Positions 15,754 to 53,272 of a stretch of 64,000 nucleotides of DNA are shown piece by piece. The notes under the pieces are model-generated. The model was not told where the DNA came from and did not search any database. It saw nothing but the letters and a program-made list of their open reading frames with translations. The translations under genes were made by a program, and so were the position numbers. Each line of letters opens with the position of its first letter. Position 1 is the first letter of the stretch. The DNA comes from Acanthococcus lagerstroemiae. Taxonomy: Eukaryota > Arthropoda > Insecta > Hemiptera > Eriococcidae. The stretch is taken from positions 27,363,312 to 27,427,311 of the forward strand of contig CM063113.1 in the NCBI GenBank assembly GCA_031841125.1. The letters are read 5' to 3'.

Positions 15754-16200
15754 ATGTACAGGATAATTTGATCACTTCTTATTTTTTAGATAGAGAAGAA
15801 CGGATAATCCGATTTAATTTTCAAAGATTACAAAGCTTACACATTTATGAAAAAACAATTTCATGCTCCAATTTCTTTCATTAAAGAAAATTATCAAAAC
15901 GTATTTTCGTTTCATACTATTGCATATGTTTGGGCAAAAGTACCGCTCAGTACTTCTAATGTACAGGATAATTCGATCGTATCTCATTTTGGAGATAGAG
16001 AAGAATGGGCAATTCTATTTAATTTCCAAAGATTACAAAGCTTATCCATCTTTGGAAAAAAACAATGTCATGTTTCATTTTCTTTATTTTTTTCCAAACG
16101 CCTGTTTTTTTTTTTCTGTATGGGAATTTAAATGTTATTTCGTTTCATATGTACTAGTACATATGTTTGAGCTCGTCCGAAGGACGGGTAATTCAGCTAG
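15754..16200 (+). mobile_element. Helitron-like 3' end with internal 205-bp tandem duplication
   Basis: The sequence ends gtccgaaggac (16175-16185), a short perfect hairpin, then gggtaattcag and CTAG (16197-16200) followed by T. A GC hairpin about 10 bp before a CTRR terminus, inserted before T, is the diagnostic Helitron 3' end. Upstream, a unit beginning atgtacaggataatt is present twice, at 15754 and 15959. A 205-bp direct duplication of this kind is common in non-autonomous Helitrons. The 5' TC end was not located, so the left border is only that of the repeat. The element abuts the RTE remnant that starts at 16201. Confidence 0.65.
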
Positions 16201-16627
16201 TATTAAATATTTGGCTTTTGTGGAAATTACTAAAGTTACCAGGACTTCGACCAGGTTTTGGTTATTCTCGTTTTTATCTCTTTCTCCGTTTTGTTGTCAA
16301 ATGTTATTTGTTGTCCTAGATATGTGGTCGCTTGCACTATTTTAAATTCTGCTGTCTCTATTTTTAATTCCAATTTTGAAGGGGTTGTTTCATCTTTAAT
16401 CATTATCTTCGTATTGCTCGCACTCATTATTAGCCCTGACTGTCTACCGTGTTTATCGAGTTCTTCGATCATCGATTTTAGTTCTTTTTCTGAGTTTGCT
16501 AGTAGGTTTACTCTTCCCAGTTTAGCTCTTTGAACACACCCTCCAGCGCACCGTTGACTATGATCGGGGACAGCGGATCCCCCTGTTTAACCCCTCTCCT
16601 AATTTCCCGGTTTTCTCTGTTTTAATT
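16201..16627 (-). pseudogene. RTE copy A, 3' part (split by the 8.0-kb element)
   Basis: On the minus strand this encodes the continuation of the RT fragment at 24940-24663. After one frameshift it gives RRGVKQGDPLSP (about 16600-16560) and NGALEGVFKELNW, and in the 16472-16236 frame YLGQQITFDNKTEKEI-type sequence of the RTE post-RT region. Removing 16628-24662 and one TSD copy joins GLKARIKT directly to this part, with a 1-nt shift. It ends at the Helitron-like terminus. Confidence 0.88.
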
Positions 16628-16679
16628 AGGTGCATTTCCTCGGCCCCCCCACTTACCCAGATAGACTTGAAACATACGC

Positions 16680-17025
16680 CATTCGTTTGTGCTACGTTTG
16701 TGCTGGTTTGTGCTGAAAACCTCATCGTTTGTGCTGCTCCCCTTCCTGAGATATTCGAGAAAACTTTTTGGGGGGGGGGGCTGTAGAAACGGGAGCCCCC
16801 CACTTTCACCTAGGGGATTGAAAATGGTGTCAATCGTTTGTGCTACATTTGTGCTGGTTTGTGCTGAAAATTCCGTCGTTTGTGCTGCCCCCCTTTCTAA
16901 GTTGTTGAGGTTTATTTTGGGGGGGGGGCTGAAGAAATGGTCTTTGAAAAAGGAGTTAGATAAAGAGTTGAAAGGGGAAAAGTGGATGCAATAGTTTGTG
17001 CTCCGTTTGTGCTGGTTTGTGCTGC
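16680..17025 (+). repeat. TTTGTGCT subrepeats of the left terminus
   Basis: Three clusters, about 150 bp apart, each contain three or four copies of tttgtgct, typically as gtttgtgctacgtttgtgct followed by ggtttgtgctg. About eleven copies in all. Between clusters lie g-rich runs. The mirrored set lies in the right terminus at 24285-24610. They may be transposase-binding sites (inference). Confidence 0.8.
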
Positions 17026-17490
17026 CCTCCATAATCTCCTATACCCCATAGACCCGTCGAGAGGGGGCTCTTTGTCGTACAGTAGGATACAAATCAGGTT
17101 TGCCTGAAAATTAAGGAGTAGGCAAACATATGTAAGCAATAAGGGAATGCGATAGAAAAGTTGTTTCTGTGTTTATTAGCTCAATTATTTTGCCGAAGTT
17201 TGTTTCATACGTACCTAGACCCACTTACTTACATAATTCATTTTTGGACATGAATTTATTAATTATTATTGTCGTTACAGCGCACTGATATTTTCACCAA
17301 AACATTATTATTCAAACGAACGCTAAAATCTAATATGTCTTGATTTTCACCAAAATCAAATCACTTGCTCAATTACTTAATTACTACAAAATTTAGCTTT
17401 TTTTTCTTTTTTTTCTTTTTTCTTTTTTTGGTTGTTAAGGATGAATTTTGAAAATTCATAACAGTGCTACTAGCTGCATTGCGCCTCATT

Positions 17491-17995
17491 TGGGTCTACT
17501 GTCATTACACCCTCTTACAAAATCTGCATTTCCCGCTCCGTGGTCCTTTCATTCTTTTCGGCTCTTACCATCTTTTTGTGCAGTCAACTTAATTGTGCGT
17601 TTTGCGGATTATAAGGTAATGACCACCTGGACCATCTTCCATCTTCGGTCATTTCACCTTCTTTTCAAAACTATATTCTTTCACTGTGGCGTTCTTTTTA
17701 TCGCTTTCGCTTGTGCCACCTTTTTGTGTGGAATCAAATTATTCTTACTTTCGGCGGATTATAAGGTCCATGACTTTCCGGGCCATCTTGGTCTACTGTC
17801 ATTACACCCTCTTACAAAATCTGCATTTCCCGCTCCGTGGTCCTTTCGTTCTTTTTGGCTCTTAAGATCTTTTTGTGTAGTCAAATGAATCTTACGTTTC
17901 GTGGATTATAAGGTTCACGACTTCCTGGACCATCTTCCATTTTTGGTCATTTCTCGCTCTTTCTGAAACTATATATATTCTTTCGCTCTGTCTTT
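17491..17995 (+). repeat. tandem repeat inside the left arm
   Basis: A block beginning ctactgtcattacaccctct occurs at about 17496 and again at about 17792 (period close to 297 bp), and a sub-block with ggattataaggt recurs three times (near 17604, 17756 and 17904). Only the last copy is represented in the right arm, whose matching segment ends at 24282. Confidence 0.75.
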
Positions 17996-18374
17996 GATAC
18001 TGCCTTTTTAGACTATTCTTTCAAAAATGACATTTTCGCCTAAAATTGACGATTTTATATACGTATTGGGACTACGTCGGGTGGAAATTCAATTTTCGAA
18101 ACTATTTCGTCAGTTTCTAATTTTTCAAGAAAAAATTTTTAATTTTTAATTTTTTGAGAAAACCGTTTTTAAAAATCCATTTTACTTGAAAATAAACTTT
18201 GAAAAATTGTACCACCCTTATTATTTGCTGCAATAAAGTACTTATTTTGATGTAAAATTGTTACCTTGCACATAGTTTGGGAGGAATAGAAATATAAAAA
18301 TTAGGTTCAGTTTTCCAAGACCTTTAATTTGATATCATTAAAGCCATAGTTTTTACCGGGACTTTTTGAGACTG

Positions 18375-19160
18375 CAGTAGACTTCCAATTATCCGCCCGA
18401 ATTGGGCCTACAGATTGGGCGGATAACCTGAAAACATGTAATTTTGATAAGAAAAATATTGAGAAAGGGGGGAAAACCATTTTTATTGAATTAGTTACGT
18501 AAGGTAATAAGTTATTTTATACAAAACAAAACTTCAATATTAAAAAAAAAATCGGCAATTTTAGCCTTTTTGATCAGTGGGGGAGGGGGCAACATTGTAA
18601 AAAAACAACTAAAAACAGTCAGTTCATTTTTTTTTTAAATCTGTAGTTTTTCTTTGCTTCTTCATGATATGCCGCTCTTTTCAGCAGCATAATTTCTCTA
18701 CTTTCTTTGTGAATTTCATAATCTGCAGCAGTAATTACTGGCTGTTGTTTAAACACCAGTAACTTTCCCAATGCTGAAAAAGCACTGTCATAATGTGTAT
18801 CAGCCTTGGGCTTATTTACGAGCACAACAAGCGCACCGGATGGGAGCAGCCGATTTTGAGGGGTGGCCGAATTTTGAGAATGAGCTTTTTTCTAAGGTGG
18901 ATGTTGGATAGGAACAGATACGAAAAAAAAAAATTCCGGCTAGGCAGTCGAGGGCCCCGAGTGCTTGTAACCGACCTTCATCATAATCCGGGGCTGATCC
19001 ATATGTACTGATGCGTCTCCTACCCGTTCTTGATCATAATTATTATCAGGTGTGCTAAGGACTGAAGTTGTGATTTTAGTGAGATTTTGGACGGATAAAT
19101 TCGTGGCGAGAACAATCTGGAAGGTGGATAAACCAATGGCGGATTATCGGGAGTCTACTG
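18375..19160 (-). mobile_element. pogo/Tigger-like element, left-arm copy, internally deleted
   Basis: Ends are inverted repeats cagtagacttccaattatcc and, reverse-complemented, cagtagactcccgataatcc, characteristic of pogo/Tigger-type Tc1-mariner elements. The right flank starts with TA as expected; the left flank reads ctg, so the TA duplication is lost on that side. At 786 bp it is far shorter than an autonomous Tigger. It keeps a C-terminal transposase remnant (18619-18825). Present in both arms, so it inserted before the inverted duplication or was copied by gene conversion. Confidence 0.75.
18619..18825 (-). pseudogene. C-terminal remnant of a Tigger/jerky-type transposase
   Basis: A 68-codon frame with SAFSALGKLLVFKQQ and EIMLLKRAAYHEEAKK resembles the tail of Tigger/jerky-like transposases, in which a helix ending in QQ is followed by a basic LL(K/R) helix. 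The DDE catalytic domain and the DNA-binding region are absent. An identical 68-codon frame lies in the right arm at 23267-23473. Not functional on its own. Confidence 0.5.
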
Positions 19161-19261
19161 TATTTATTTATTTATTTTTTTTTTTTGAGACTATTTCATT
19201 TTTATAGGGATTTTTATAGACTCTTTAAGTCTTTTTAGAGACTTTTAATACGACCTTTTTT

Positions 19262-19288
19262 TGAGTTTTTAGCGCCTAAAAATCCGAG
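19262..19288. mobile_element. orphan hAT-like terminus (left arm)
   Basis: The sequence gcgcctaaaaatccgagcct followed by tg resembles the right terminus of the hAT element at 8954-9636 (cataaaaatcctagccc). Its mirror is at about 22800-22826 in the right arm. No matching opposite end or TSD was found, so it is a remnant. Confidence 0.45.
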
Positions 19289-19389
19289 CCTTGATGATAA
19301 TCTTCAAGGATTTAACAACATTAAAACGGTTAACGAGCAAAACTTTTATTGGGTATCTGTAAGAACCGTATCTGTTGTATGTTTGTAAT

Positions 19390-19925
19390 TTAAGCCCATT
19401 TGCCTCTCTTTTTTCCACTGCACGAATTTTTTATTGAAACCTTGAAATTCATTGATTAGTCTTTTCTCCATGAATAGCATAGCAAAGGGCAATAGGCGTT
19501 TCTCTTCCATTGTGTTTCTTATAAAATTTTGATTCTTTCTACATACAAGAAACGTCTTTCAACTTCGTCAGATGACATTAGCATCATTATATAAAATTTT
19601 CAGAGGCTTAATAAATTCATAGAAATAAGTATTCAGAATATCCTTAAGGAAGAAGTACCGTAAATCAGTTGTTTTTACACTTTAGAAATCTTGCCTTTCA
19701 TAGATTATTTTCAGTTCAATCTTCAATTTTTTTTTCATGAAGGATGGAATAGCATGCCACTGTATTCTTCAATAGTTAATTCGCCAGAGATTTTTGTTTT
19801 TTTCAAATTAGAAAAATCAAACAAATTAGCCACAAGCGAATGCCCGGTGTAATTAAATCTGTCAGTAATTTCGCAAATAATGATATCGCATTCACGCGAA
19901 TGTCGGATATCGGAATGATATCATG
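19390..19925 (-). pseudogene. hAT transposase C-terminal remnant (left)
   Basis: Minus-strand frames give, in order, CDIIICEITDRFNYTGHSL-like sequence (19910-19830), KISGELTIEEYSGM, then SSDEVERRFLYVERIKIL (about 19590-19530) and MEEKRLLPFAMLFMEKRL. The S...VERxF core followed by a basic RIK segment and RNxMxEERL is the hAT C-terminal dimerisation domain. Stops and shifts are present. The part from 19390 to 19655 is duplicated in the right arm; the part beyond 19655 belongs to the single-copy centre. Confidence 0.65.
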
Positions 19926-20654
19926 CCGATATCAGTGTCGGTTGAATATCGGACGATGAGCATAAAGATACACGTTTATATTGATGCTTTATGTTTTACA
20001 TTGAAGAATTTTCCAGATTCGTACAAGCGCGAAAAATAATATTGTGATACAACAGACATCAGTAATCATGTTTTCGAAATCACTGAATTCGTTTTTCACC
20101 TGTTAACCCCTAGGTAGAAATTTGGATCCCATCGGGAAAGGGGGCGACAGGCAAAAAATGCATTAAATGTAATATGCGTATCGTTTCGCAGGGTTTTGGC
20201 GCCGTAAAATTCATGTACCGATTTTCAGATTACCGTGAAAATTGAGGGACCTGTAGTGGGGCGAGAGCTGAAAATAAGAATAAATTAACAATTTGGAAGT
20301 GGATTTCATTTTTTATGTTTTCGAGATGATTTTTCGAATTTGAGCTTCAGTCAAGAGGAAGCTTCTTCACATGACCCTGAAAATTATTTTCTTTCTTAAA
20401 TTAGGGTTTTCCCATCTTGGAGATCATTTTCCCCCTTTACCTTCTTCGAACTCCACAGAAAGCTGATTTTCAATTATTTCAATTTTGTTTCAATTTCCAC
20501 GTCATTTATGTCTGAATGAGAGTTTTTTCGGTCCCGCAGTCCATTTTTGAAGTTTTTCCCTCTCCCCCTTATCCGTATGCGTTCATTTTTCAACTAAAAG
20601 CTTTTAAATGAAATATATTTTTAAATAAATTTATGAAATTAATGAACAGTAATT

Positions 20655-21060
20655 TTTAGTATACACAGTGTAAGTATTCAAGAAATTCCGGGATCAATTT
20701 TTTTCAAGAAAGGAAAAAAAAGCTTAGAAAAAACTTTCTATTTAGTTTTTAAAATAATCCTCTCCTCGTTCGATACAAATTTTGCTGTGCTCGTACCAGT
20801 CACTGAAACGATCTGGAGAACTCTTCTTTCGGAATGGCTTTCAGAGCCCTGGTCACATTCCTTTGTATCGCCTCAACATCTTCGAAACGCTCTCCCTTCA
20901 TCGTAATTTTTAATTTAGGAAATAAAAAAGTCTAACTGAGCCATATCTGGTGAGTAGGGCGGATGGTGATTTGTGGTGACTGACTTTTGAGCCATAAATC
21001 GAGTGACGAGTGTCGAGGAATGGGCTGGTGTATTGTCTTTTGTCTCTTGGAAGAAATCCT
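20655..21060 (-). pseudogene. mariner-type transposase remnant, catalytic C-terminal half
   Basis: Minus-strand frames give DNTPAHSSTLV (second catalytic Asp context, about 21035-21005) and PYSPDMAQLDFF (third Asp context, about 20965-20930), then after a shift an LKITMKGERFEDVEAIQ-type segment and a W(Y)E tail. This order is that of mariner (DD34D) transposases. Multiple shifts and a stop after LDFF make it inactive. The N-terminal half is missing. Confidence 0.75.
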
Positions 21061-22189
21061 TATTCAGACATAGAGGAAGCGTATATTAGAATAATTATTG
21101 AAAATCAGCCCTCTGCGGAGCCCAACATGGAAGAAAAGAAAAATACAAGGAGTGGATTTTGTGATCCTGAAAACGTCAGTGTGTGAACGAAAATAACTTC
21201 CAGTCGTATATCAGGAGGTCTACCGATCATATAAGTCATATTTTTTGAAAGAGGTCATTTAAGTCATCTTTTTTTTTTTTTTTTTTTTTTTTGCTTTAGG
21301 TCATCTAAAAAGTTTTTATTCTGTTAAATGGTTTTAAAAACTTCGTGTAAAGGGCTACCACTCTTTGATACACTGACATTTGTACTTTCACAGCATTGGG
21401 GAATCTTTTTATTCGTGAGTGTTCTCAGTCTTCCTCTACTTCGGTTGGCTCATATCCTCAAGTAAATCCTCAGGTTCTGTAAGGCACCTTAAAAATCTCC
21501 AATTTTTAAGGGAAAGCCTCAAGTATGCGGAGCGAACGACTGGGCGGGCCCGCAGCTCGCAAATCATAATCGGCATAATTCGAACATTATCGGAAAAACC
21601 GCTATGGTGTTCGATTAGGGAATTTTCTATGTACTTTCTCGAGATGACTGTTTTGCCCCCTTTCCTACCACCTACATACTAATCAGGCAATTCTTTCACC
21701 CGAGCTGTTGGTGTAGTAAGTAGTTAGAACAGAAAAAATGTGAGCCTCGTAGTCCAAACGGGAAATGAGCTTGGAGTTCCTCAAGAATTATTATGACACT
21801 GAAGTAGCTTATTCAGTATCTTGGAAAATAAATCATAAAACTTTTTGAACCTCAAAACTCTATTTTTTTCTTATTTTTTTCAAATTTGTCGGTAACATTG
21901 CTGCCAACTGCATTAAAATAATAGAAAAGGTTGTAAATTGCCACTACTTAATGTTGTAAAACAGTTCAGGGTAGTAATATTACAATTTGCAATAAAATTG
22001 AAAGAGATGGTAGCCCTGCTATAGAAAATTCTCAAGAAATCAATGAATATAATATATCTTTGAGAATCAAAATATCTGTAAAAATTGTATGAGGCGCAAT
22101 GCAGCTAGTAGCACTGTTATGAATTTTCAAAATTCATTCTTAACAGCCAAAAAAGTATGCGCTCGCTGGAAATTTATCTGCGAGAGGAG
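21061..22189. other. unassigned centre sequence
   Basis: No gene recognised. At 21218-21300 repeated catttaagtcat-type words next to a poly(T) run resemble the sequence near 51955-52030, suggesting a shared small repeat. Confidence 0.4.
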
Positions 22190-22437
22190 CGCCCTTCTTC
22201 TACTTTTTTTCTTCCATTCTCGCGGGAGATTATCCACAATGAATTTGTGCCCTTCCCCGCCGCCAAAAAATAAACGCAGCATCCTACAAAGATGTTATGG
22301 AACGACTTTTGAAGTAGATTCAACGCATGAGACTGGAATTGTACCGCACCGGTGATTTTCTTTCCTCTTGCAAGAGACAAAAGACAATGCGCCAACCCAT
22401 TCCTCGACACTCGTCACTCAATTTATGGCTCAAAAGT
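22190..22437 (+). pseudogene. mariner-type transposase remnant, second piece
   Basis: Plus-strand frames give REIIHNEFVPF (about 22225), matching the (I)VHxEFVP motif upstream of the second catalytic Asp in mariner transposases, and then, after a shift, RQ(C)A..HSST from gacaatgcgccaacccattc (22382-22401). The last 65 bp are an inverted copy of 20998-21062. The fragment ends abruptly where the hAT remnant of the right arm begins (22438). Confidence 0.65.
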
Positions 22438-22715
22438 TCTTCCTTAAGGATGTTCTGAATACTGATTTCTATGAATTTATTAAGCCTCTGAAAATTTTAT
22501 ATAATGATGCTGATGTCATCTGACGAAGTTGAAAGACGTTTCTTGTATGTAGAAAGAATCAAAATTTTATAAGAAACACAATGGAAGAGAAACGCCTATT
22601 ACCCTTTGCTATGCTATTCATGGAGAAAAGACTAATCAATGAATTTCAAGGTTTCAATAAAAAATTCGTGCAGTGGAAAAAAGAGAGGCAAATGGGCTTA
22701 AATTACAAACATACA
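22438..22715 (+). pseudogene. hAT transposase C-terminal remnant (right)
   Basis: Mirror copy of the left remnant: MMLMSSDEVERRFLYVERI from 22504 and MEEKRLLPFAMLFMEKR from 22581, separated by a stop. It corresponds to the hAT C-terminal dimerisation domain. It starts exactly at the end of the mariner piece, so the join is a recombination or insertion junction. Confidence 0.65.
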
Positions 22716-22931
22716 ACAGATACGGTTCTTACAGATACCCAATAAAAGTTTTGCTCGTTAACCGTTTTAATGTTGTTAAATCCTTGAAGATTATCATCAA
22801 GGCTCGGATTTTTAGGCGCTAAAAACTCAAAAAAAGGTCGTATTAAAAGTCTCTAAAAAGACTTAAAGAGTCTATAAAAATCCCTATAAAAATGAAATAG
22901 TCTCAAAAAAAAAAAAAAAAAAAAAAAAATA

Positions 22932-23716
22932 CAGTAGACTCCCGATAATCCGCCATTGGTTTATCCACCTTCCAGATTGTTCTCGCCACGAATTTATCCG
23001 TCCAAAATCTCACTAAAATCACAACTTCAGTCCTTAGCACACCTGATAATAATTATGATCAAGAACGGGTAGGAGACGCATCAGTACATATGGATCAGCC
23101 CCGGATTATGATGAAGGTCGGTTACAAGCACTCGGGGCCCTCGACTGCCTAGCCGGAATTTTTTTTTTTCGTATCTGTTCCTATCCAACATCCACCTTAG
23201 AAAAAAGCTCATTCTCAAAATTCGGCCACCCCTCAAAATCGGCTGCTCCCATCCGGTGCGCTTGTTGTGCTCGTAAATAAGCCCAAGGCTGATACACATT
23301 ATGACAGTGCTTTTTCAGCATTGGGAAAGTTACTGGTGTTTAAACAACAGCCAGTAATTACTGCTGCAGATTATGAAATTCACAAAGAAAGTAGAGAAAT
23401 TATGCTGCTGAAAAGAGCGGCATATCATGAAGAAGCAAAGAAAAACTACAGATTTAAAAAAAAAATGAACTGACTGTTTTTAGTTGTTTTTTTACAATGT
23501 TGCCCCCTCCCCCACTGATCAAAAAGGCTAAAATTGCCGATTTTTTTTTTAATATTGAAGTTTTTTTTGTATAAAATAACTTATTACCTTACGTAACTAA
23601 TTCAATAAAAATGGTTTTCCCCCCTTTCTCAATATTTTTCTTATCAAAATTACATGTTTTCAGGTTATCCGCCCAATCTGTAGGCCCAATTCGGGCGGAT
23701 AATTGGAAGTCTACTG
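22932..23716 (+). mobile_element. pogo/Tigger-like element, right-arm copy
   Basis: Mirror of 18375-19160, with the same inverted ends (cagtagactcccgataatcc at 22932; agtctactg ending at 23716). Preceded by a longer poly(A) run than in the left arm. Contains the identical transposase remnant at 23267-23473. Confidence 0.75.
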
Positions 23717-24662
23717 CAGTCTCAAAAAGTCCCGGTAAAAACTATGGCTTTAATGATATCAAATTAAAGGTCTTGGAAAACTGAACCTAATTTTTATATT
23801 TCTATTCCTCCCAAACTATGTGCAAGGTAACAATTTTACATCAAAATAAGTACTTTATTGCAGCAAATAATAAGGGTGGTACAATTTTTCAAAGTTTATT
23901 TTCAAGTAAAATGGATTTTTAAAAACGGTTTTCTCAAAAAATTAAAAATTAAAAATTTTTTCTTGAAAAATTAGAAACTGACGAAATAGTTTCGAAAATT
24001 GAATTTCCACCCGACGTAGTCCCAATACGTATATAAAATCGTCAATTTTAGGCGAAAATGTCATTTTTGAAAGAATAGTCTAAAAAGGCAGTATCAAAGA
24101 CAGAGCGAAAGAATATATATAGTTTCAGAAAGAGGGAGAAATGACCAAAAATGGAAGATGGTCCAGGAAGTCGTGAACCTTATAATCCACGAAACGTAAG
24201 ATTCATTTGACTACACAAAAAGATTTTAAGAGCCAAAAAGAACGAAAGGACCACGGAGCGGGAAATGCAGATTTTGTAAGAGAAACCAGCACAAACGGAG
24301 CACAAACTATTGCATCCACTTTTCCTCTTTCAACTCTTTATCTAACTCCTTTTTCAAAGACCATTTCTTCAGCCCCCCAAAAATAAACCTCAACAACTTA
24401 GAAAGGGGGGCAGCACAAACGACGGAATTTTCAGCACAAACCAGCACAAACGTAGCACAAACGATTGACACCATTTTCAATCCCCTAGGTGAAAGTGGGG
24501 GCTCCCATTTCTACAGCCCCCCCAGAAGTTTTCCGATATCTCAGGAAGGGGAGCAGCACAAACGATGGGGTTTTCAGCACAAACCAGCACAAACGTAGCA
24601 CAAACGAATGGCGTATGTTTCAAGTCTATCTGGGTAAGTGGGGGGGCCGAGGAAATGCACCT

Positions 24663-24940
24663 GTTTTAATTCGGGCTTTCAGTCCCGTATACATTTCTTT
24701 TATCACGTCTATATAGTTTTTTGGCACTCCTTGGTTTTTCAGTGTTTTTTCGATAAAAGCGTGGTTTAGTGAGTCGAGGAGGGCTTTCGTGTAATCGATC
24801 AGCGCTAGGTATAGGTCGATTTGGTACTCTGAGCATTTTCCCATGATCTGATTCAGGCTGTGTAAATAAATGGCCAACCATCGAGAATGTTTTCCGGAAG
24901 CCTGCTTGTCGAGAGTATAATTTCGACTAACTCCTCGATA
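24663..24940 (-). pseudogene. RTE copy A, 5' part (reverse-transcriptase palm)
   Basis: Minus-strand frame with EYQIDLYLALIDYTKA, NHAFIEKTLKNQGV and MYTGLKARIKT, the RTE segment that contains the first catalytic Asp (IDYTKA; normally IDFTKAFD). Upstream, in another frame, QASGKHS/FRKTFS corresponds to the QAGFRKGYST motif. The reading continues across the 8.0-kb insertion at 16627. The element is 5'-truncated near 24940. Confidence 0.88.
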
Positions 24941-25559
24941 TTACCGTCAGTCTAATTCATAACTGAACGATACGATGACAGACTTGCCGCATCAGACTAA
25001 TTCGACCTAACTTGATGTAGGTAGCAGGTACATAGTACAATACATGTAGATTTCGCTCTCTCGGCTCTTCGGTTTTGAAATATGGACTGATTGCACTGCT
25101 TGCCGCACCATATAGCAGGTGCGGAAAGGTCTACCGGATGCGGCAAACACGTTCGTGGGCCCATATACGTGCACGTATGCGGTTAAAAAGCCGATTATGA
25201 CGAAAGCATACGACAACGCCGAAAAAAAAAAGGAAAAAGAAGGAAAGTAATAAAGCGACGTAAACTGTATATTCGGAAACGAAAGTTGACGGATTATCTG
25301 CTAAGGCTCTTACCCAAGTGTGGGTGCAGATATGTGTGTAGCCGGCGAGAAAACTAGAGCGAAAACGAGGATGAGAAAAAAAAAAAAGAAACAGGATGAT
25401 CCTCACTCGGTTCATGAATTATTCAGCGTATCCTCTCGTTTTACCAATATAATTTAACTATAGCAGAACGATATTTCCCCTTCAGCTGCAACATGCCTAG
25501 CAGAGCCGCGGCTTCTTTCGTCTGCCCTCAGTCAACTATACACACACATATACACGCAT
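24941..25559. other. unassigned DNA
   Basis: No gene recognised. Short A-rich runs at 25224-25250 and 25376-25390. Confidence 0.4.
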
Positions 25560-27340: not shown

Positions 27341-28450
27341 CAAAACGAATGAACACCGGTCTGAAATAAACGAAACGGAAAACCAAACGAAAAATCGCTC
27401 ATGAAAAACCGAAAATGTTGAAAATAACGAAACGATTTAACAAAACGAAAAAAACTGTTTCGTTTGCCATCCTTGCAAAAAAAAAACACAAAAAATTATG
27501 AAATCGTATTAGAAATGAAAAAAACAGCTAAATTAAAATTACGTCAGTTTCTGAAACGCATGAGAATCATTAATCCTTTGAACTAATATCTGTATTGTAC
27601 TCAATGACATGAAAAAATCGAAATGATAACGAAATGGTTTAGTTTTGTTAGAAACGGGGCTGGCAAACGGTAACGAAAACAAAATAACAGAATAACGGAA
27701 AATTTTGGGCAAAAATGAAGAAACGGTAAACGAAAAACGAAACGAAAAAGTCGCGATTATTTCTAGGTTCGACAAATAATAATGAAATGCTGGATTTACA
27801 CCAAAGTTATAAGCATACTTGTTAATTCTACCTTCATATTTTAACTGTAACGTACTTGTCACTAGCATTATGCTTATAACTTTGGTGTAAATCCAGCGTA
27901 ACGGTAACGGAATAACGGAAAATGTTGGGCAAAAATGAAGAAACGGTAAACGAAAAACGAAACGGGGAAAAAAATTGGGATATTGAAAAATCGAAAAATG
28001 AAACGGAAAAAAACATTTGAAGTATCGAAAAACGAAAAACGAAACGAAGAAGCCTAAAAAAAGATTTCGTTTGCCAGCCCAGGTTAGAAACAAAACGAGT
28101 GAATACCGGTCTGAAGTAAACAAAATGGAAAACCAAACGAAAAATCGCAACGGAAAATGTTGGGCAAAAATGAAGAAACGGTAAACGAAAAACGAAACGG
28201 GGAAAAATTGGGATACTGAAAAACCGAAAAATGAAACGGAAAAAAACATTTGAAGTATCGAAAAACGAAACGAAAAAGCCTAAAAAAAGATTTCGTTTGC
28301 CAGCCCTGGTTAGAAACAATACGAGTGAATACCGGTCTGAAGTAAACAAAACGGAAAACCAAACGAAAAATCGCTCATGAAAAACCGAAAATGTTGAAAA
28401 TAACAAAACGAAAAAAAATTGTTTCGTTTGTCATCCCTGCAAAAAATAAA
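27341..28450. repeat. A-rich tandem repeat array
   Basis: A unit of about 235 bp with accggtctgaa, aaccaaacgaaaaatcg, aatgttgggcaaaaatgaag and tttcgtttgccagccc is repeated: the clearest full units run from about 27918 and 28151, with partial units at each end (27341 and 28318). Long minus-strand frames rich in Phe and Ser (27539-28406) are by-products of the repeated AAACG words and are not called as genes. Confidence 0.85.
27789..27897. mobile_element. 109-bp palindromic element inside the array
   Basis: A perfect 28-bp inverted repeat starting gctggatttacaccaaagtt, with a central region of about 53 bp. It interrupts the tandem array. Possibly a tiny MITE; no TSD could be fixed. Confidence 0.7.
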
Positions 28451-42429: not shown

Positions 42430-42850
42430 CCTACCTTCAATACGTAAGGGCCTACACCAGTTCTGCAATTCCAGTTATAAAATTTGAGGGTAAGTTCTGA
42501 AGTGTTTAACTTTCAATTTTTATAGCCCCTAAGTTCCAAGCTAAACAACAGGTGGTACTAATAATGTTTTTGTTTCATTTTCAGTGCGCTATCTACTCCT
42601 AACTTTCAAAGCAGGTTGCAAAGGAGTTACCACGAACAATACTCAATTCCAAAATTTAGATAATTTCATAAAATTTAACTAAATTAAAAAATTTTGAAAT
42701 GAAATTTCACCGAGTAAATTATGATTCTTTGTCAAAGATTGCTTTCAATCGCGGCTATTTTACAAGATTATCACTACCTAATGCCTATCCTGAAAATTTG
42801 AGGAGCTACAAAAATCAAAAGTTGTGCACTTCAACAATTTCATTCCAATT
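42430..42850 (+). repeat. dispersed repeat R1, copy 1
   Basis: About 400 bp that recur in inverted orientation at 48950-49320. Shared blocks include taagggcctacaccagttct, aactttcaatttttatag, cacttgt/acaggtgg-type sequence and gattgctttcaatcgcggct. No coding sequence. Related shorter pieces lie at 42290-42380 and 42840-42930. Confidence 0.7.
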
Positions 42851-43393
42851 TTATAAATAGTTTTGTAAAACTGGTAGAGCTCCTTCAATATCGAAGATAG
42901 AAAATTTGGTATGTTACGTTTCTGTTACCTTTTTAATGTGCTATTTAAGTGCCTTCAAAAACAAAAGTCTAAACTAAAATTCTGCAACGAAATTTTGCAA
43001 CCTCCAAATTTTAAAGACTTCAGCCCCTACAAGTTTGAGCATAGATAATCTCACAAACAGATTCAACGAGTTGAGAATTATGCAAACAAATTGTATTCAT
43101 GTTTCTTGATCAGCGGGGGCTGTAATGAAAAAAGTTTACGTCTGCCCAGATTTCAAGCACACGGTATTGACCTCCAGAGAAATTTTCTCACAGAATTCTG
43201 GATAACTACTTACATTTTGCGATAAGCAGTTTCTTCAATTCAACCATCTTTACTTTCTATAGAACTTCTTAAGATTTACGGGTATCACAGCACAAGTGCA
43301 GATTTTTTGTTAGCGAATCTCAAGTGTTGAAGCTTCAACACCGACGGATCACCCAAATATTTTTTGTGATTAAACGTCTAATGGAATGACTTT
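42851..43393. other. unassigned DNA
   Basis: No gene recognised; probably decayed repeats related to the preceding block. Confidence 0.35.
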
Positions 43394-44718: not shown

Positions 44719-46392
44719 CTATGATAGGTTTGTTACAAATCTACAAAATCCCTTATTCTGGGTAAATGCCTCCTTCAACCTCTCCCATTTGGTCCGGTCT
44801 GCTGCAACCCTGTGATAGAGACGGTTTCTGATAAAGTTGGTGATATTGTCCGACCACCTAGCCCTCTGCTTCCCCGGTTCTCTCCCTTCTTTTAGAAACC
44901 AAAATGTTGTTTTTATAGTCCATCTGTCATCCTTCATTCTGCACACGTGCCCTGCCCAGTCCCATTTTAACCTTCTAACAAAGTGGATGATATTTTTATT
45001 GGATTTTAGTTTGTTCTTAATTTTTGTCAGATTCACTTTGTCTTTCAGTTTAATGCCAAGCATTGCCCTCTCCATAGAGTTTTGTGCAGTTCGAAGTTTT
45101 TTTCCCAAATGTTTGGTCACAGACCATGTTTGACAGCCATAAGATAATGCCGGGAGGACACAACTATTAAATAATTGACTTTTGAATGAAATAGGATATT
45201 TGTTTTTGAATATAAATTTTAAAGACCAAAATTTGCTCCATGCTAATGTAATTCTTCTGTCAATTTCTTTTTCTGTTTGATTTTTGAATGAAATTAATTG
45301 TCCAAGGTATATTATATCTTCAACTGTATCAATTGTTTTTGTACCAATTTTTATTATATTTGTTTGCCCTGGGTTGCTTAGGATTTTTGTTTTTGCCAAA
45401 TTTATTTCCATCCCTGCGTTTACACTTTCTTTGGTGAGTTCTTCCAGAATTTCCTGGAGCTCGGATGCACTCCCCGCTACTACCACCACGTCATCTGCAA
45501 ACCTTAAATTGTTCAGAAATACCCCGTTAATTTTTAGCTCTTTTTTATCCCAATCCAGGTTTCTGAAAATTTCTTCTAAGGCGCAGTTGAAGAGTAGCGG
45601 TGAAATCGGATCTCCTTCCCTTACTCCCCTTTTAATTTCGAAAATATTTCCCTCTATGTCAGTGACTATTCTTGCTTTTAGCCCCTTGTATGTTTCCTGA
45701 ATTAATTGAATGAAGTCCTTGTTAATCCCCTGGTTTTGAAGAGCTTGAATCATGTAGTTGTGATTAATAAGATCGAAAGCCTTGGTGAAGTCGATGAAGG
45801 GTAGGTGGACGGAAATCTGATATTCGGATGATTTTTGAATGAGTGTATTTACCGTATGGAGGTGGTCAGTCGTGGAGTACCCCTTTCTGAAGCCTGCCTG
45901 GCAAGGCGATTGTATCAGGTCAAGCTTCGCTCTCAAACGATAGTCTAGCATGGAGGAGAAGATTTTGGCTAAGATTGGAATTAGGCTTATCGGTCGGAAG
46001 TTTTTAATGCCGTCTTTTGATCCCTTTTTAAATAATAAAATGATATTTGATAGTTTCCAATCAGCTGGAATGGTTTTTATTTTAAGAATAGTGTTGTACA
46101 TAGCTGTAAGAACTTTTATTAATTTTGGTCCTCCGTGCTTGACATGTTCGTTGTTGATGCCATCATGACCCGCTGCTTTTCCTGGCTTCAGTCTTTCGAC
46201 TGCCCTTTTCACTTCGCATTCCAAAAAGTCCGGTTCGCAATCGTCACTGCTTGATGTTTTAATACTGAGAGGTACGGAATCGTCTGAGTATAGCTCTGCA
46301 TAGAAATCGGTAGCAATTTTATTTATTTGTGTACGATTGTATACTTTTTCGCTTTTTTTGTTTTTTAAACATGTCATAAATGTTTTTCCCAA
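44719..46392 (-). pseudogene. RTE reverse transcriptase ORF, 557 codons
   Basis: An uninterrupted 557-codon frame. By residue: GHDGINNEHV (75-84), QAGFRKGYST (165-174), FIDFTKAFDLINH (199-211, first catalytic Asp), RGVREGDPISPLLFN (255-269), LRFADDVVVV (296-305, the catalytic FADD), YLGQLISF (near 365), CVLPALSYGCQTWSVTK and WAGHVCRM of the C-terminal domain. All residues expected for RT catalysis appear present. The Met start is internal: the reading continues upstream in another frame (KSTKTIKK then a stop, then RILGKTFM), so the true protein began at the endonuclease. Used in target-primed reverse transcription. The broken upstream part makes the copy unlikely to be autonomous. Confidence 0.92.
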
Positions 46393-46589
46393 AATTCTTT
46401 ATTTTTTTATTGTTTTTGTACTTTTTGTAGACTCCATAATTTGATGAATCAGATTATCTAATTTATCTTGTTTAAATTTTCGTAAAAGTTTTCTTACCAG
46501 TTTGCAAGTTAGGTTAAATTCAACTTTGTTTTTTGTTGTTTTCGGCTGTTTTTTTAGAGATTCCCTTTTTTTTTTTTTATTAAATCCAA

Positions 46590-47600
46590 AATTTTTTGAG
46601 GGAGTTTTAGTTCAGACTTCCCTTCCGTGGGAGGATGCCTTCGCTGCCTCTAGAATCATTTTTTGAATTTGCTCCCAGCTAGGTAATTCTCCACAGCTCC
46701 CCACCTCTGGCAAGTTTCTGTCTAAAGTTAATTGATAATCTTCTTGGGTTTCTGAGGAGATTCTGGGAGGTAGTTTTTGAGTATTTGGACGGTATCTTTT
46801 GTTCTTTATGGCTAGTTTGCAAAATATAGGTCTGTGGTCAGAGTGGAATTGAAAGTGAGCTAGGGTATCACAGTTTGTTATATTATTAAAAGTTATTGGG
46901 GGGGGGGCTAGTCTATAGTCGATTTGTGATTTGAACGTTTGATTTGGGGCTAACCAAGTCCATCTCTTGCCTTCTCTCTTCTTGAAAAATGTGTTTAATA
47001 ATTTAAAATTGTTTTCCTGGCAAAAGAGAACCAGTTTAGCTCCCCTTGGATTTCTTTTTCCATAGTTGAATTTTCCTACAGTTTCTTGTTCGTCTGTTTT
47101 TGGATACCTACTTGGCTATTAAAATCGCCTAGTATTAGCAAGTGGTTTTTAATGTTTTGTTTTTGCTTGTTCAGGATCTCCTTCAATTGTGAATAAAATT
47201 CGTCACAAGTTTTTTCTTCAGTAGTGGCTGTTGGTGCATATATTTGGATTATTGTTAATGATTGTTTTTCAAGTTGGAATTTTATTATGGCTATTCTGTC
47301 TGAGATTCCTCTGAATTCAGTGATTTTGTGACTTATATTATTTTTTATTAAGAAGCCTACACCTCTCTGACCACTTTGAGAGCCTATATAGCAAAAAGTA
47401 TTTTTTTCTTTTGTGAGAATCATGCTTTCGCCATTCCTCCTGATTTCCGCAAGGCCTATAATATCCAATTTTGAGTTTCGGAAGGCTCATTATAGTTCGG
47501 CTAAATTTTCATCTTTTATTAAAGTACAAACGTTGAGGGTGGCAATTTGAATTGATTTTGTTTTTTTGGTTGATTTGTTTTGTTGGCGATTTTTTGATTT
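46590..47600 (-). pseudogene. RTE endonuclease domain of copy F
   Basis: The 47468-47076 frame has LDIIGLAEIRR (catalytic Glu), GVGFLIKNNISH, IIQIYAPTA and ILGDFNSQVG (GDFN motif). Upstream in the same phase but beyond stops is IATLNVCTLIKDENL, the usual RTE endonuclease start. After a shift, RWTWLAPNQTFKSQIDY (about 46970-46920) and FHSDHRPIFCKL (about 46850, SDH motif) complete the APE-like domain. So all endonuclease motifs are present but in broken frames. It nicks target DNA to prime reverse transcription. Confidence 0.88.
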
Positions 47601-48295: not shown

Positions 48296-48949
48296 CTTTT
48301 TCTGTTTGAAGAAGCTTTTGTGGTCATTTACTGGGTTACTCGAACGGTCTTTAGATTGAATCTAGATACTTTTTTGGAAATGAAAAGGAAAAACAGAACG
48401 ACGGGTGTAAATACAGATTGTGATTTATCATCGATATGAAAGAAGCGAAGACTGGAAGAGCAGCGAAAGTTGAAAACGATACAATACCCTACTCTCTTTT
48501 ATACTATTGGCACGCCTTGTTAGTCTCGAAAGTTCCGAATTCAAAAGGTACGCACGAGTACCAGTCGAGGCAAATTGGACTCTAAAAGAAAATTCGGTAA
48601 GAAAACAAGGCCGACGTAACAGGCGGAACCCTACGATAGATCTGCAACCGAAAAAATCCAGTTTCTCGCCCTCTTTCCCTCAAAACAGTCGCCGGATGAT
48701 TCCTGCACAGCCTCAATCACTGATAAGCCAGAAGTGATGAGCTACCTATACATATCTATAATCTAAAAGTGGAGAGGATCTAGGAAGCAATCCTGGAGGG
48801 GGCACTTCGAAATGTATAGAAATTCAATTTATATTGTCTCCGATTCGCCCTCAGGATAGCAACAGAGTGAGTAAAGAAACGTATCTATCCGGAAAGACTT
48901 ATACCTTTTATAAAAGGTCAATAATAAAATTTGAATATAACTATTGAAG
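48296..48949. other. unassigned DNA
   Basis: No gene recognised. A 76-codon plus-strand frame (48507-48737) has no known motif. Confidence 0.4.
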
Positions 48950-49320
48950 CGCACAACTTTCAATTTTTATGGCTCCTTAAATTTTTGAGATAGGCAGTAG
49001 GCAGTGATATTCTAGTAAAATAACCGCGACTGAAAGCAATCTTTGACTTAGAATGACATTTTACACAATGAACTTTCATTTCAAATTTTTTTATTTCGCT
49101 ACATTTTATGAAACTATCTAACTTTTGGAATTGAGTTTTAGGGGTTGGCAATAGATCATATCTACACTGAAAATGAAACAAAAATTGCAAGTACCACTTG
49201 TTTACCTTGAAACTTCGAGGGGCTAGAAAGATTGAAAGTTGTACACTTCAAAACTTATCTTCAAATCTAATAATTGGATTTCCAGAATTGGTGTAAACCC
49301 TTATGTATCGAAGGTCGGCA
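48950..49320 (-). repeat. dispersed repeat R1, copy 2 (inverted relative to 42430-42850)
   Basis: In reverse complement this matches 42430-42850, including taagggtttacaccaattct, aactttcaatctttctagcc and attgctttcagtcgcggtta. The pair flanks the RTE copy F region at a distance of about 6 kb. Confidence 0.7.
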
Positions 49321-50511
49321 ATCATAGCTAACTTTCATGGAAAGTCTTATTACTAATTTAATTCAAACTTTTTTTTTTAAAGATAATGCCTTTTGAACAC
49401 ACGGATCGATTTGCCCTCAGGATAGCAATAGAGTCAGTAGAGAAACATATTTATTCAGACTTATGAGATATTTGACTTATGTACATATTTTCTTTACTTG
49501 AAAATGATATACCTTTCGACAGAGTTGTTGAATATTTTTAACTCCATGAATTTACAACTGCATCACAATTTTTGCAAATTTTTCAACAATTACCACAAAG
49601 TAGGTCAATTTTTCCCTTCGAGAAAAGACGGGGCAGTCTGTAAGGCCAAGACGTTCATGTTAAGGTTCTATTCGACCCTCCCCGACCTATTTACAACACT
49701 GTAAGGCTATTCCAAATTTGATTGGCTAAGACTGTTCGAAACTCAGCAATGACTCTTCATGACTTTTCTGACTTTATTATGCTCTTTCAAGTATGATCAA
49801 GATTGTACATCTCCTACATTTCTCGAGATTCAAGATTCTTATAAGCCTGTAGGACGCTTTAGAGGTAACTTGAAGACATCAATGTTCGTCAATGGCAGGC
49901 CCAGGATTTTAGATTTCAACATTGGGAAAGAGGGAGGGGGATAGAAGGCAAAATTCTTCATACCAGCAAAAAAATAAAATAGCTTTATAAGGCAGACAAA
50001 GGAAATAAGGAAATATCGAACGAGCTTATTTAGGAAATTCGTTTGATTTATTCGCAAATTTCTACAAGTAGAGTACGGTTACTGAAGAGATTTTTCTGAG
50101 TAAATAATACAAAAGAACATAAATTAATGACACAGTAACAATAAATAGGAAAAGTAACTTCAATCAGGAACTATTAAGAACACAAGAATTTTGTGAGCTG
50201 AAAGTCCAAAAGAAGTAATTTTTTGTAGAATAATACCACCACTTCCCCTCGTGACGAACAGCAGCGTACAAGCGAGTTACTCGAACAGAGTGTCTATAAA
50301 AATCGAATTTTGAAAATAAATAACGTTTAAATGATCTTTTTCTCCCAATTTGCTACGAATGCGCTAAAATGAAAATACAATTAAGTTTAATACACTACGA
50401 TAATTTTTATCCAATTTCAAAATTAATGATCTAGGAAAGCATCTACTTAAGAAGTCCAATCTTCTTTTTAATAGATGTACTTGGGAGATGTTGCTCCTTT
50501 GTAATTTCTAG
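49321..50511. other. unassigned DNA
   Basis: No gene recognised. 49320-49400 resembles 42290-42380 in direct orientation, so this repeat family is complex. Confidence 0.4.
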
Positions 50512-50815
50512 ATGATTGAAAAATGTGATGCGGGCAAGAGAAGGGGTATCTCACATGCAAAAGAACATATTTTTCTAAAAACTTTTCTCCTGATTCATTA
50601 ATCATTAAGTCTTTTAAATTTATTTTTGTTTTGTGTTTTTTGAGTCGGGAATTAATTTTTAATATTTTTGAGTAAAGAATTAGAAAAACTCATTTTTCGG
50701 AAAAAATATTGGAAAAGAAGCAGAATTGTGCAAAATATGCGGTAATTGCCAAAATATGCGAAATATGTAAAATGAAGCGCTGCTTATTTGACTCAGAATT
50801 CTGTGATTCGTGAAG
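50512..50815 (+). repeat. inverted repeat pair, left arm
   Basis: About 305 bp that recur inverted at 52062-52369: tgtgatgcgggcaagagaa, ctcacatgcaaaagaacata, aagcagaattg-type and gactcagaattctg blocks. The arms enclose a LINE fragment and a SINE. They may be long termini of one element or two separate insertions of one repeat. Confidence 0.7.
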
Positions 50816-50839
50816 ATCTTTCGAAACGTCAAATTGTAA

Positions 50840-51260
50840 ATAATGATGTTACTTTTGAAGTAGAGAAATCCAAACTAGTCCTATACGCAGATGACATAAA
50901 AATATTTAAAAAGAAACTTCCTTCTTAGACTGTATTGAGTTTCAGACAGATCTGAATTCTATTGTTTCTTAGAGCGATTGGGATCTACTCCCCTTCAATA
51001 AATCCAGGAGATTATAAATAGATTGCCAAGTATTTCGGAAGAGACCTGTGTATACTACTGGATAGCAAATCATCATTTTCCAAACATATACACGTCCATC
51101 ACCTCAAAATGTAAAAGAATAGCCGGTTTTATCAAAAAGACCAGCGTTAATTATGTACACGAAATATGAAACTAAGAAACTATCATTTTTTGCTTCACAG
51201 TAAGATCAATTTGAGAATTTAGCTCAATTATCTGGGCAGGGGCGGAAACAGAGCAAAAAC
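50840..51260 (+). pseudogene. Jockey/CR1-like LINE fragment (RT and thumb region)
   Basis: Shifted frames give KLVLYADDIKIFKK (about 50870, catalytic YADD), a DLCILLDSKSSFSKHI-like piece (about 51045), CKRIAGF-like text (about 51110) and SAQLSG/LNYLGR-type text near 51220. The same order and similar residues are seen in the LINE at 60.6-61.0 kb, so both are one family. Truncated at both ends. Confidence 0.8.
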
Positions 51261-51344
51261 TTCGCCCCCCCCCAAAAAAAAATAGAGAAAAAAAGATTTT
51301 CTTCTTGGTAATACTTTCTTTGTAAGAAAAGAAAAAAAAAGAGG

Positions 51345-51550
51345 GGTGACCTTTTTTCTAATCCTGGAATCCGCCCTTTCGAGCATTACTTCAGACACGT
51401 CGGGGAGGCTGTTAGGGCTGTCTTAGCTCTCTTCCCGTCTGGCCGAAAAACCGGCCTAGGTCGAAAATTCTGGCGAGTTGCTACGTGGGCTCGAACCCGG
51501 GACCTCCGGATTCTGAGACCAACGCGCTATCCACTCGGCCAACCAAACCT
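51345..51550 (-). repeat. tRNA-derived SINE, copy 2
   Basis: On the minus strand it begins with a tRNA-like head: A box tggccgagtgg (51531-51541) and B box gggttcgagcc (about 51488-51498), 33 nt apart in the tRNA manner. The anticodon-loop position reads ctcagaa. The head is followed by a body with gacctaggccggtttttcgg and cctaacagcctccccgacg, and an A-rich end gattagaaaaaaggtcaccc. RNA polymerase III SINEs depend on a LINE for mobility. A and B boxes are intact here. Confidence 0.9.
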
Positions 51551-52061
51551 CAACGGGGGGGGGGGTGACCTTGTCCGATGCTTTAGTCGAACGTTATTGA
51601 CCTAGTGAGCTGAAAATATCATGTCGAACTTTCGCAGGCCTAGTTTCGTGCGAGTTTGACTCTTGACTTAGGGCCAGTGGTACTCAAACTGAGTGAAGGT
51701 GGTTCTCTTTAAAAAATTCTGATCACGCGAACAATAAAGCCTATCAAACTTCTGATGACGAAAAGTAAAATTACTTTTTTGACATGTACAAGTTTGATAA
51801 TACCACTCATCTTTATTTTTCATGTGATCAACGTTGATACAAACATTTTTGATTTTTTTTAGGCGTGTGGGACCCAGTCATCATTTATTCAATGAAATTT
51901 TACAGTGCGAACAGCGATATTCTGCGCACATTTGTTCCCTTCGACAGGGTGTCTAACAGTCATTTAAGTCATTGAAAGTCATTTATTTTGAAAGAAGGTC
52001 ACTCAAGTCATTTAAAATTATTTATTTTCAATCTTGGTCATTTAAAAGTTTAAAAATCAGC

Positions 52062-52369
52062 ACTTCATGAATCAGAATTCTGAGTCATGAACAGTACTTC
52101 AGTTTGTATATGTCGCATATTTTGGCATTTACTGTAGATTCTGTACCAATTCTGCTTATTTTTCAATATTTTTTCCAAAAAAGTGATTTTTCTAGTTTTT
52201 TACTCAAAAATACTAAAAATGATTCCCGGACTCGAAAAAAATAAAAAAATAAATAAAAAATTGAAAAGACTCAATGATTAATGAATTAGCAGAAAAGCTG
52301 TTAGAAAAATATGTTCTTTTGCATGTGAGATGCCCTTTCTCTTGCCCGCATCACATTCATCAATCATTT
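52062..52369 (-). repeat. inverted repeat pair, right arm
   Basis: Reverse-complement partner of 50512-50815. Its outer end abuts the (TTTA)n tail of the LINE fragment that starts at 52370. At 51954-52030 just inside lies cagggtgtctaacagtcatt and catttaagtcatt-type words. Confidence 0.7.
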
Positions 52370-53272
52370 ATTTATTTATTTAATACTACTGCCCCCCCCC
52401 CTGGACAAAACTGACCAGATTTAGAGGTGACAAAGTACATTGCATTGCAATTTTTCCACTGTTCATTGAAGAATGGAGGGGGCTGAGAAAATGATGGGAA
52501 ATAATCAGGCTTAAGGGAAGGGTATCCTGAAAATATTGGAAGTAAACTGAACATATAGGGGAAGAAGAACATGACGACGAGGAGCGTTAGAGTGTAGGGA
52601 AAGGGAGAGAGGAAGGAAATCACTGAAACCAAGCTGGCTCGGAGGCCGATAAATGCTTCTGAATGACGTTATTTGCTCTAGCTACCTTATTGTGAAGACA
52701 GAGTATATATGCCGTAGAGGCCGGAGTTACATCCGTCTAAGGCAGCAAAAACAGCATTGGCTTTGCTATTGAACGTTGGGATTCGGAAATTTATAGTACC
52801 TAAAAGTTCACTATCCTTGACTCGTCCATTAATCATGTCCCCCAAAAATAACACAGCTAATAATTTTCGTCTATTACGAGTAATTAGACTGATCACCTCA
52901 AACTCCTGCAATAATTAAGTATATTTGAGGTTGTATGGGTAATATGAAGGGTGGTAAAGAATCAAAATTCAAATTTGCCATTTTACTTCAATGGCGCAAA
53001 TAAGCAAAATATTGTGCACGGGTGAAGGAATATCTTCGCTGCGCCTGTGAACATAGAGTATGCTAATACATATCGCACATTCACAGGCGCAGCAAAGATA
53101 TTCCTGCACCCGTGTACAGTATTTTGCCTATTTGCACCTTTGAAGTAAAATGGCAAATGTGAGTTTTGATTCTTCACCCTTCATATGTAAACAGAGAGCA
53201 TAATATAAATATTTAAAAAATGTTTTTATGGATTTTTTTTCAATTTTACCTTTATCCTGCAGCTCCCAGATA
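52370..53272 (-). pseudogene. Jockey/CR1-like LINE 3' end with (TAAA)n tail
   Basis: Minus-strand frame 52911-52687 has RNRRKLLAVLFLGDMINGRV and LLGTINFRIPTFNSKA, which resemble the C-terminal end of Jockey/CR1-type RT proteins (RR...L..LL.G.I...LL..I.F.VP). It ends at a stop near 52687. A 3' UTR follows, shared with the LINE at 59890-60190, and then ttaaataaataaataaatga (52366-52385 region), a (TAAA)n tail. Upstream of the frame it is interrupted by a 237-bp MITE and is 5'-truncated near 53272. Confidence 0.8.
52946..53182. mobile_element. 237-bp palindromic MITE
   Basis: The two halves are inverted copies: gaagggtg, tttgccattttacttcaa, cacgggtg and ctgcgcctgtgaa on the left are mirrored on the right. 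It is flanked by atat on both sides; because atat is itself palindromic, a TA duplication with TGAAGGGTG termini is equally possible. The paralogous LINE at 60250-60265 reads taatatgtaaac uninterrupted, which is the empty site. No coding sequence. TA would point to a Tc1/mariner-type source. Confidence 0.9.

Follow-up and report, generated by a model that had tools for sequence, protein, structure and literature searches.

We analysed a 64,000-nucleotide stretch of the genome of the hemipteran insect Acanthococcus lagerstroemiae (assembly GCA_031841125.1, contig CM063113.1, positions 27,363,312 to 27,427,311; hereafter the window, whose own numbering is used throughout), in which an 8,035-bp element with inverted ends (16628-24662) sits within the reverse-transcriptase frame of a decayed RTE retrotransposon. 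The terminal sequence of the element is AGGTGCATTTCCTCGG, and each end carries an outer terminal inverted repeat (TIR), 391 bp long on the left and 380 bp on the right. The outermost 94 bp are identical between the ends. Over their full length BLAST matches the outer TIRs at 95.7%; they differ by 6 substitutions and 11 gap columns, several of the gaps falling within G tracts. On both sides the element is flanked by GTTTTAATT, an exact 9-bp target-site duplication (TSD). When the window was scanned for inverted ends that match exactly over 12 bp, lie 150-15,000 bp apart and are bordered by an exact 9-bp direct flank, this was the sole pair to pass, and no case of inverted ends with a duplication arose in 8 Markov-simulated windows. 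Exact 16-bp inverted ends 1,000-15,000 bp apart gave 2,531 pairs in the window, presumably nearly all from the element's own arms, and only the element's pair showed a duplication. The limits, the inverted termini and the exact duplication given in a first-pass annotation of this DNA were therefore correct, and the inverted-ended unit inside the RTE is real.

When the flanks of the element are joined, their alignment to the RTE copy at 44719-46398 runs through the insertion point, the minus-strand frame with GLKARIKT continuing into a frame with RRGVKQGDP. This continuation agrees with the first-pass annotation, which had the frame resume with a 1-nt shift, but the exact size of the shift is uncertain: the change of frame corresponds to a 10-nt gap (10 = 1 mod 3) that lies 12 nt away from the TSD, and the aligned sequences are only 57% identical. 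The target RTE is also dead at other places. A better-preserved RTE copy (44719-47115, minus strand) has two open frames, one of 559 aa that contains a reverse-transcriptase domain and one of 167 aa, and is flanked by inverted repeats of 205 nt that are 78% alike (42682-42886 and 48892-49096). The 559-aa frame gave 459 matches in the protein database at E 1e-3 or better, the top one with 52% identity over 97%; among the matches listed (best 120 of 459), the named relatives were from insects (e.g., Plutella, Kerria and Diaphorina) and one rotifer.

The outer TIRs are made of tandem units with a regular internal pattern. Each end holds two complete units with four TTTGTGCT boxes at offsets 0/21/31/42, read inwards on the AGCACAAA strand, and a third unit, of which the left end retains three boxes; the right end retains two, the following box being cut by the junction. 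The units are spaced by 143 nt on the right and by 151 and 158 nt on the left, and the first box begins 59 bp from the left end. Subrepeats in the terminal 400 bp or so had been noticed at the outset, and the counts bear them out: TTTGTGCT starts 11 times within the 391 bp of the left outer TIR and 10 times within the 380 bp of the right one, compared with 3 occurrences elsewhere in the window.

Inward of the outer TIRs, the structure differs between the two sides (Table 1). From the right end, the terminal repeat is followed directly by an inner arm of 1,846 bp and then by a mariner-like fragment; from the left end, 790 bp unmatched on the right come between the terminal repeat and the inner arm, after which follow 1.3 kb and a mariner-like fragment. 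The arms had been described as over 2 kb and near-identical, and their parts are indeed closely alike, but the arms are composite and the left one is interrupted. A 147-bp tandem array (17493-17937, 3.0 copies) extends from the 790-bp segment into the left inner arm. Because the right arm begins 25 bp into a unit of this array, a later loss of the 790 bp from the right arm would be the simpler history.

At the same place, both inner arms contain a nested segment of 786/785 bp, which has imperfect inverted repeats of Tigger type at its ends but no clean TA duplication and which we take to be a Tigger-like insertion. Its shared position indicates that the insertion came first and that duplication of the arms, or copying between them, followed; the inner arms look like an inverted duplication. 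Two further fragments, presumably of mariner origin, overlap by 72 bp at 93% in inverse orientation (20983-21054 and 22366-22437); in view of this overlap at the start of the right arm, the inner palindrome may once have been longer. A separate inverted pair of 66 bp, 97% alike, lies on the outer side of the left inner arm (17424-17489) and on the inner side of the right one (22089-22154).

Table 1. Features of the element and its immediate borders, in window coordinates
Feature	Position	Strand	Remarks
Left TSD copy, GTTTTAATT, 9 bp	16619-16627	+	Exact match to 24663-24671
Left outer TIR, 391 bp	16628-17018	+	Two full tandem units plus part of a third; TTTGTGCT boxes
Left-only segment, 790 bp	17019-17808	+	Most of the 147-bp tandem array
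Left inner arm, 1,846 bp	17809-19654	+	99.4% to 22437-24282, inverse orientation
Nested Tigger-like insertion, left arm	18375-19160	+	Imperfect ends CAGTAGACT..., 20/23 identical
Spacer between inner arms, 2.78 kb	19655-22436	.	No gene recognised; no Pfam family at cut-off in open stretches of at least 45 aa
Decayed mariner-like transposase fragment, in spacer	20640-21060 (approximate limits)	-	DDE_3 E 0.0035 and 0.0045, both below cut-off
Second mariner-like fragment	22177-22437	+	Ends where right inner arm begins
Right inner arm, 1,846 bp	22437-24282	-	99.4% to left inner arm
Nested Tigger-like insertion, right arm	22932-23716	-	Same insertion as in left arm
Right outer TIR, 380 bp	24283-24662	-	Two complete units; third cut by junction 24282/24283
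Right TSD copy, GTTTTAATT, 9 bp	24663-24671	+	Exact match to 16619-16627

The differences between the inner arms are unevenly placed. Outside a TTTA/poly-T microsatellite there are 6, all near the ends of the arms, and none across the 1,534 bp between. Counting substitutions and leaving out gaps, we found that under random placement a substitution-free gap of this kind has a P value of 1.5e-4 for the inner arms, and of 5e-6 once the 6 substitutions of the outer TIRs are counted as well, the 3 microsatellite differences being excluded in both. If these 3 are included, the gap shrinks to 1,210 bp, a length reached in 117 (inner arms) and 27 (overall) of 200,000 draws. The pattern suggests a tract of 1.53 kb homogenised between the arms by gene conversion, although, with one copy seen, selection or chance may account for it instead.

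To characterise the coding content, Pfam scans covered all 47 open stretches of at least 45 aa in 17019-22437, five of them with slightly different limits or as the mirror copy in the other arm, as well as three frames read across the terminal repeats. None of the curated family cut-offs was reached, so the element is probably non-autonomous. The weak matches besides DDE_3 (e.g., NRG2_N with E 0.0078 and DUF7714 with E 0.0055) were taken as chance. A 90-aa frame of the inner arm was considered as a captured gene and rejected, as it had no homologue sharing three words, no Pfam match at E 0.1 and a chance-level PDB match (E 0.92). Translated inner-arm sequence had also looked hAT-like, but with no Pfam match this interpretation was dropped. 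In nucleotide scans, the 23-bp terminus had no match in genome contigs, and the 22 viral-contig loci with the 16-bp terminus, none matching past 18 bp, were taken as chance; a scan of phage records and an Rfam search of 16000-25500 at gathering scores gave no hits.

A frame of 138 aa through the left terminal repeat is surely not a gene, and we nevertheless obtained 4 proteins at E up to 1 with it, out of 10 candidates: P0121 (E 1.7e-9), P0122 (1e-7), P0123 (3.1e-5) and P0124 (0.019). Together these contain 10 copies of the box-core peptide, which reads AQTSTNVAQTI in one frame and STNQHKRSTND in the other; P0121 and P0122 show both frames and P0123 and P0124 a single one. The copies are spaced by 135-156 nt (starts in one frame run one base high, and mixed-frame spacings of 144 correspond to 145 nt), and 3 of the 10 have an exact upstream box at -21. 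At the same threshold there were no matches in P0001-P0120 and 3 in 8,000 shuffles of P0121-P0124. Similarity to the query was the basis on which the four proteins were picked, so that independent evidence comes not from the match itself but from the recurrence in two frames and at a repeated spacing. The recurrence is one of conserved DNA and not of conserved protein, and the partial box pattern at this spacing in four database proteins indicates that the array belongs to a wider repeat family. Since relatives of the window's RTE in that database are no more than moderately similar to it, the four proteins are probably from species other than the host.

Long inverted ends (391/380 bp plus the 1,846-bp inner arms), tandem units 143-158 nt apart and an exact 9-bp TSD are features of the Foldback class, and by structure the element is of Foldback type. 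The first-pass annotation had read the element as Foldback-like, with a 9-bp TSD and inserted cleanly into an RTE, and the ends, the unique TSD pair and the continuity of the RTE across the joined flanks uphold this. The element is a well-preserved member of an already known class and an otherwise ordinary mobile element, the box module being the part worth following. Because no domain of Mutator-like elements (MULEs) was found in the tested open stretches, assignment to this group rests on the length of the TSD and the architecture of the ends. The 9 bp fall within the 8-11-bp range described for Mutator and equal the TSD of Rehavkus, which has TIRs of 26-400 bp (PMC6446971).

The best match among the named kinds is Rehavkus-1_TC of Tribolium castaneum on TSD, tandem units and size, followed by Tetris and Tm1/Phantom. 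Rehavkus-1_TC is described as 9.5 kb long, its inverted termini holding short arrays in which the unit is 164 bp (PMC10218199). Compared by published description only, our element has in common with Rehavkus an arthropod host, the 9-bp TSD and tandem (mini)satellite sequence at or in the termini, whereas the transposase with a PHD finger that Rehavkus carries was not found in its tested open stretches. Tetris of Drosophila virilis, again compared by description only, is similar in its long TIRs with tandem units; it is presented as a non-autonomous element with units of about 220 bp, a variable non-coding middle and 8-9-bp TSDs in three complete copies, and its assignment to Mutator was likewise based on TSD and tandem-unit ends (PMC4079207). 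Our element differs from it in unit length and in the nested Tigger-like insertion of its inner arms. Tm1 of Meloidogyne (Mutator/Phantom) has composite TIRs with internal repeats, 9-bp TSDs and non-autonomous members, but its units are 13-15 bp, its elements 0.17-2.5 kb and its end motifs, as published, different from those found here (PMC3169594); for Phantom as a whole, TSDs of 8-10 bp are given (PMC6446971).

We consider it probable that the element is a non-autonomous Foldback cut-and-paste transposon moved in trans, most likely by a transposase of the Mutator/Rehavkus group, with the boxes as putative binding sites. Such a transposase, encoded elsewhere in the genome, would bind the TTTGTGCT box arrays in the terminal repeats and bring the ends together, and a 9-bp staggered cut would place the element in the RTE copy. 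A binding role for the boxes finds support by analogy in Galileo, an element of the P superfamily with Foldback-like long TIRs, where such tandem repeats are described as holding binding sites of the transposase domain, the first about 70 bp in (PMC3688188), compared with 59 bp for the first box here. The inner arms would have arisen by inverted duplication after the Tigger-like insertion, with the loss of 790 bp on the right coming later and gene conversion between the arms homogenising the 1.53-kb stretch.

Several observations weigh against this proposal. The length of a TSD is suggestive, not diagnostic, of a transposase group, and the element begins AGG, its first base being A, whereas the first three bases are described as conserved G/C in most arthropod MULE termini (PMC13359780). 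No transposase was recognised in the tested open stretches, and there is no second copy of the element within the window. The box core had no matches in scans of viral contigs and genome contigs, two degenerate box patterns had none in viral contigs, and a search of papers for the box strings gave no matches. Box arrays elsewhere are known as translated fragments only, none of them placed at a transposon end, and the match to P0124 is weak, its E value lying above the usual limit. Homology between the 151-bp terminal units and the 147-bp inner array was not detected (best E 1.1), and a common origin of the two is unsupported.

Among the alternatives, it is unlikely that an element of this same type was moved by a transposase from outside the Mutator group, be it the P superfamily (as in Galileo), Merlin or hAT. 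That no transposase is known for the element speaks for this idea; hAT elements duplicate 8 bp and Merlin elements 8-9 bp, which counts against it. The Foldback form has also arisen in the P superfamily, as Galileo, but Galileo has a TSD of 7 bp (PMC3573991), and the TSD found here is exactly 9 bp. We also doubt that the inner 1.85-kb palindrome is unrelated to the ends, having arisen as a separate inverted duplication within a shorter element whose ends were 0.4 kb long, as the foreign transposable element (TE) sequence in the inner arms and the unequal junctions on the left and right might suggest. The inner arms lie wholly within the TSD-bounded unit and on the right directly abut the terminal repeat, and Galileo is described as recruiting internal sequence into longer terminal repeats (PMC3573991); as such recruitment is known, this would be a mechanism of arm growth and not a true alternative. 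Palindromes produced falsely from foldback reads do exist (PMC12870357), but an assembly artefact is very improbable here: different halves of the RTE stand on the two sides, outside an exact TSD, and the arms differ by substitutions, by the microsatellite, by G-tract lengths and by the 790-bp indel, and enclose a 2.78-kb spacer. A non-autonomous Foldback transposon mobilised in trans remains our preferred reading.

Foldback elements drive inversions and seed satellites, and to our knowledge most of them have no known transposase. Tentatively, and with less than even confidence, we suggest that the element represents a widespread unnamed Foldback family in which a four-box putative transposase-binding module (0/21/31/42, units of about 145 nt) is kept at fixed spacing between genomes as the rest of the ends diverges, and in which the arms would grow by inverted duplication of landed TEs and be kept alike by gene conversion. 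A box module common to several contigs would offer a concrete sequence with which to trace the entire family and its transposase. The single copy described here also appears to record an order of events, from nested insertion through arm duplication to arm loss and conversion, and thereby a route by which Foldback arms may grow.

The window contains other repeats. At 50509-52370, about 1.3 kb is enclosed by inverted arms of 133, 106 and 60 nt that are 77-86% alike; this is probably another TIR element, with no duplication at the ends tested. A short palindromic element resembling miniature inverted-repeat transposable elements lies at 52953-53178, its 99-nt arms being 90% alike and 28 nt apart, and a tandem repeat with a unit of 226 bp (2.0 copies, 94% matches) is found at 27914-28374.

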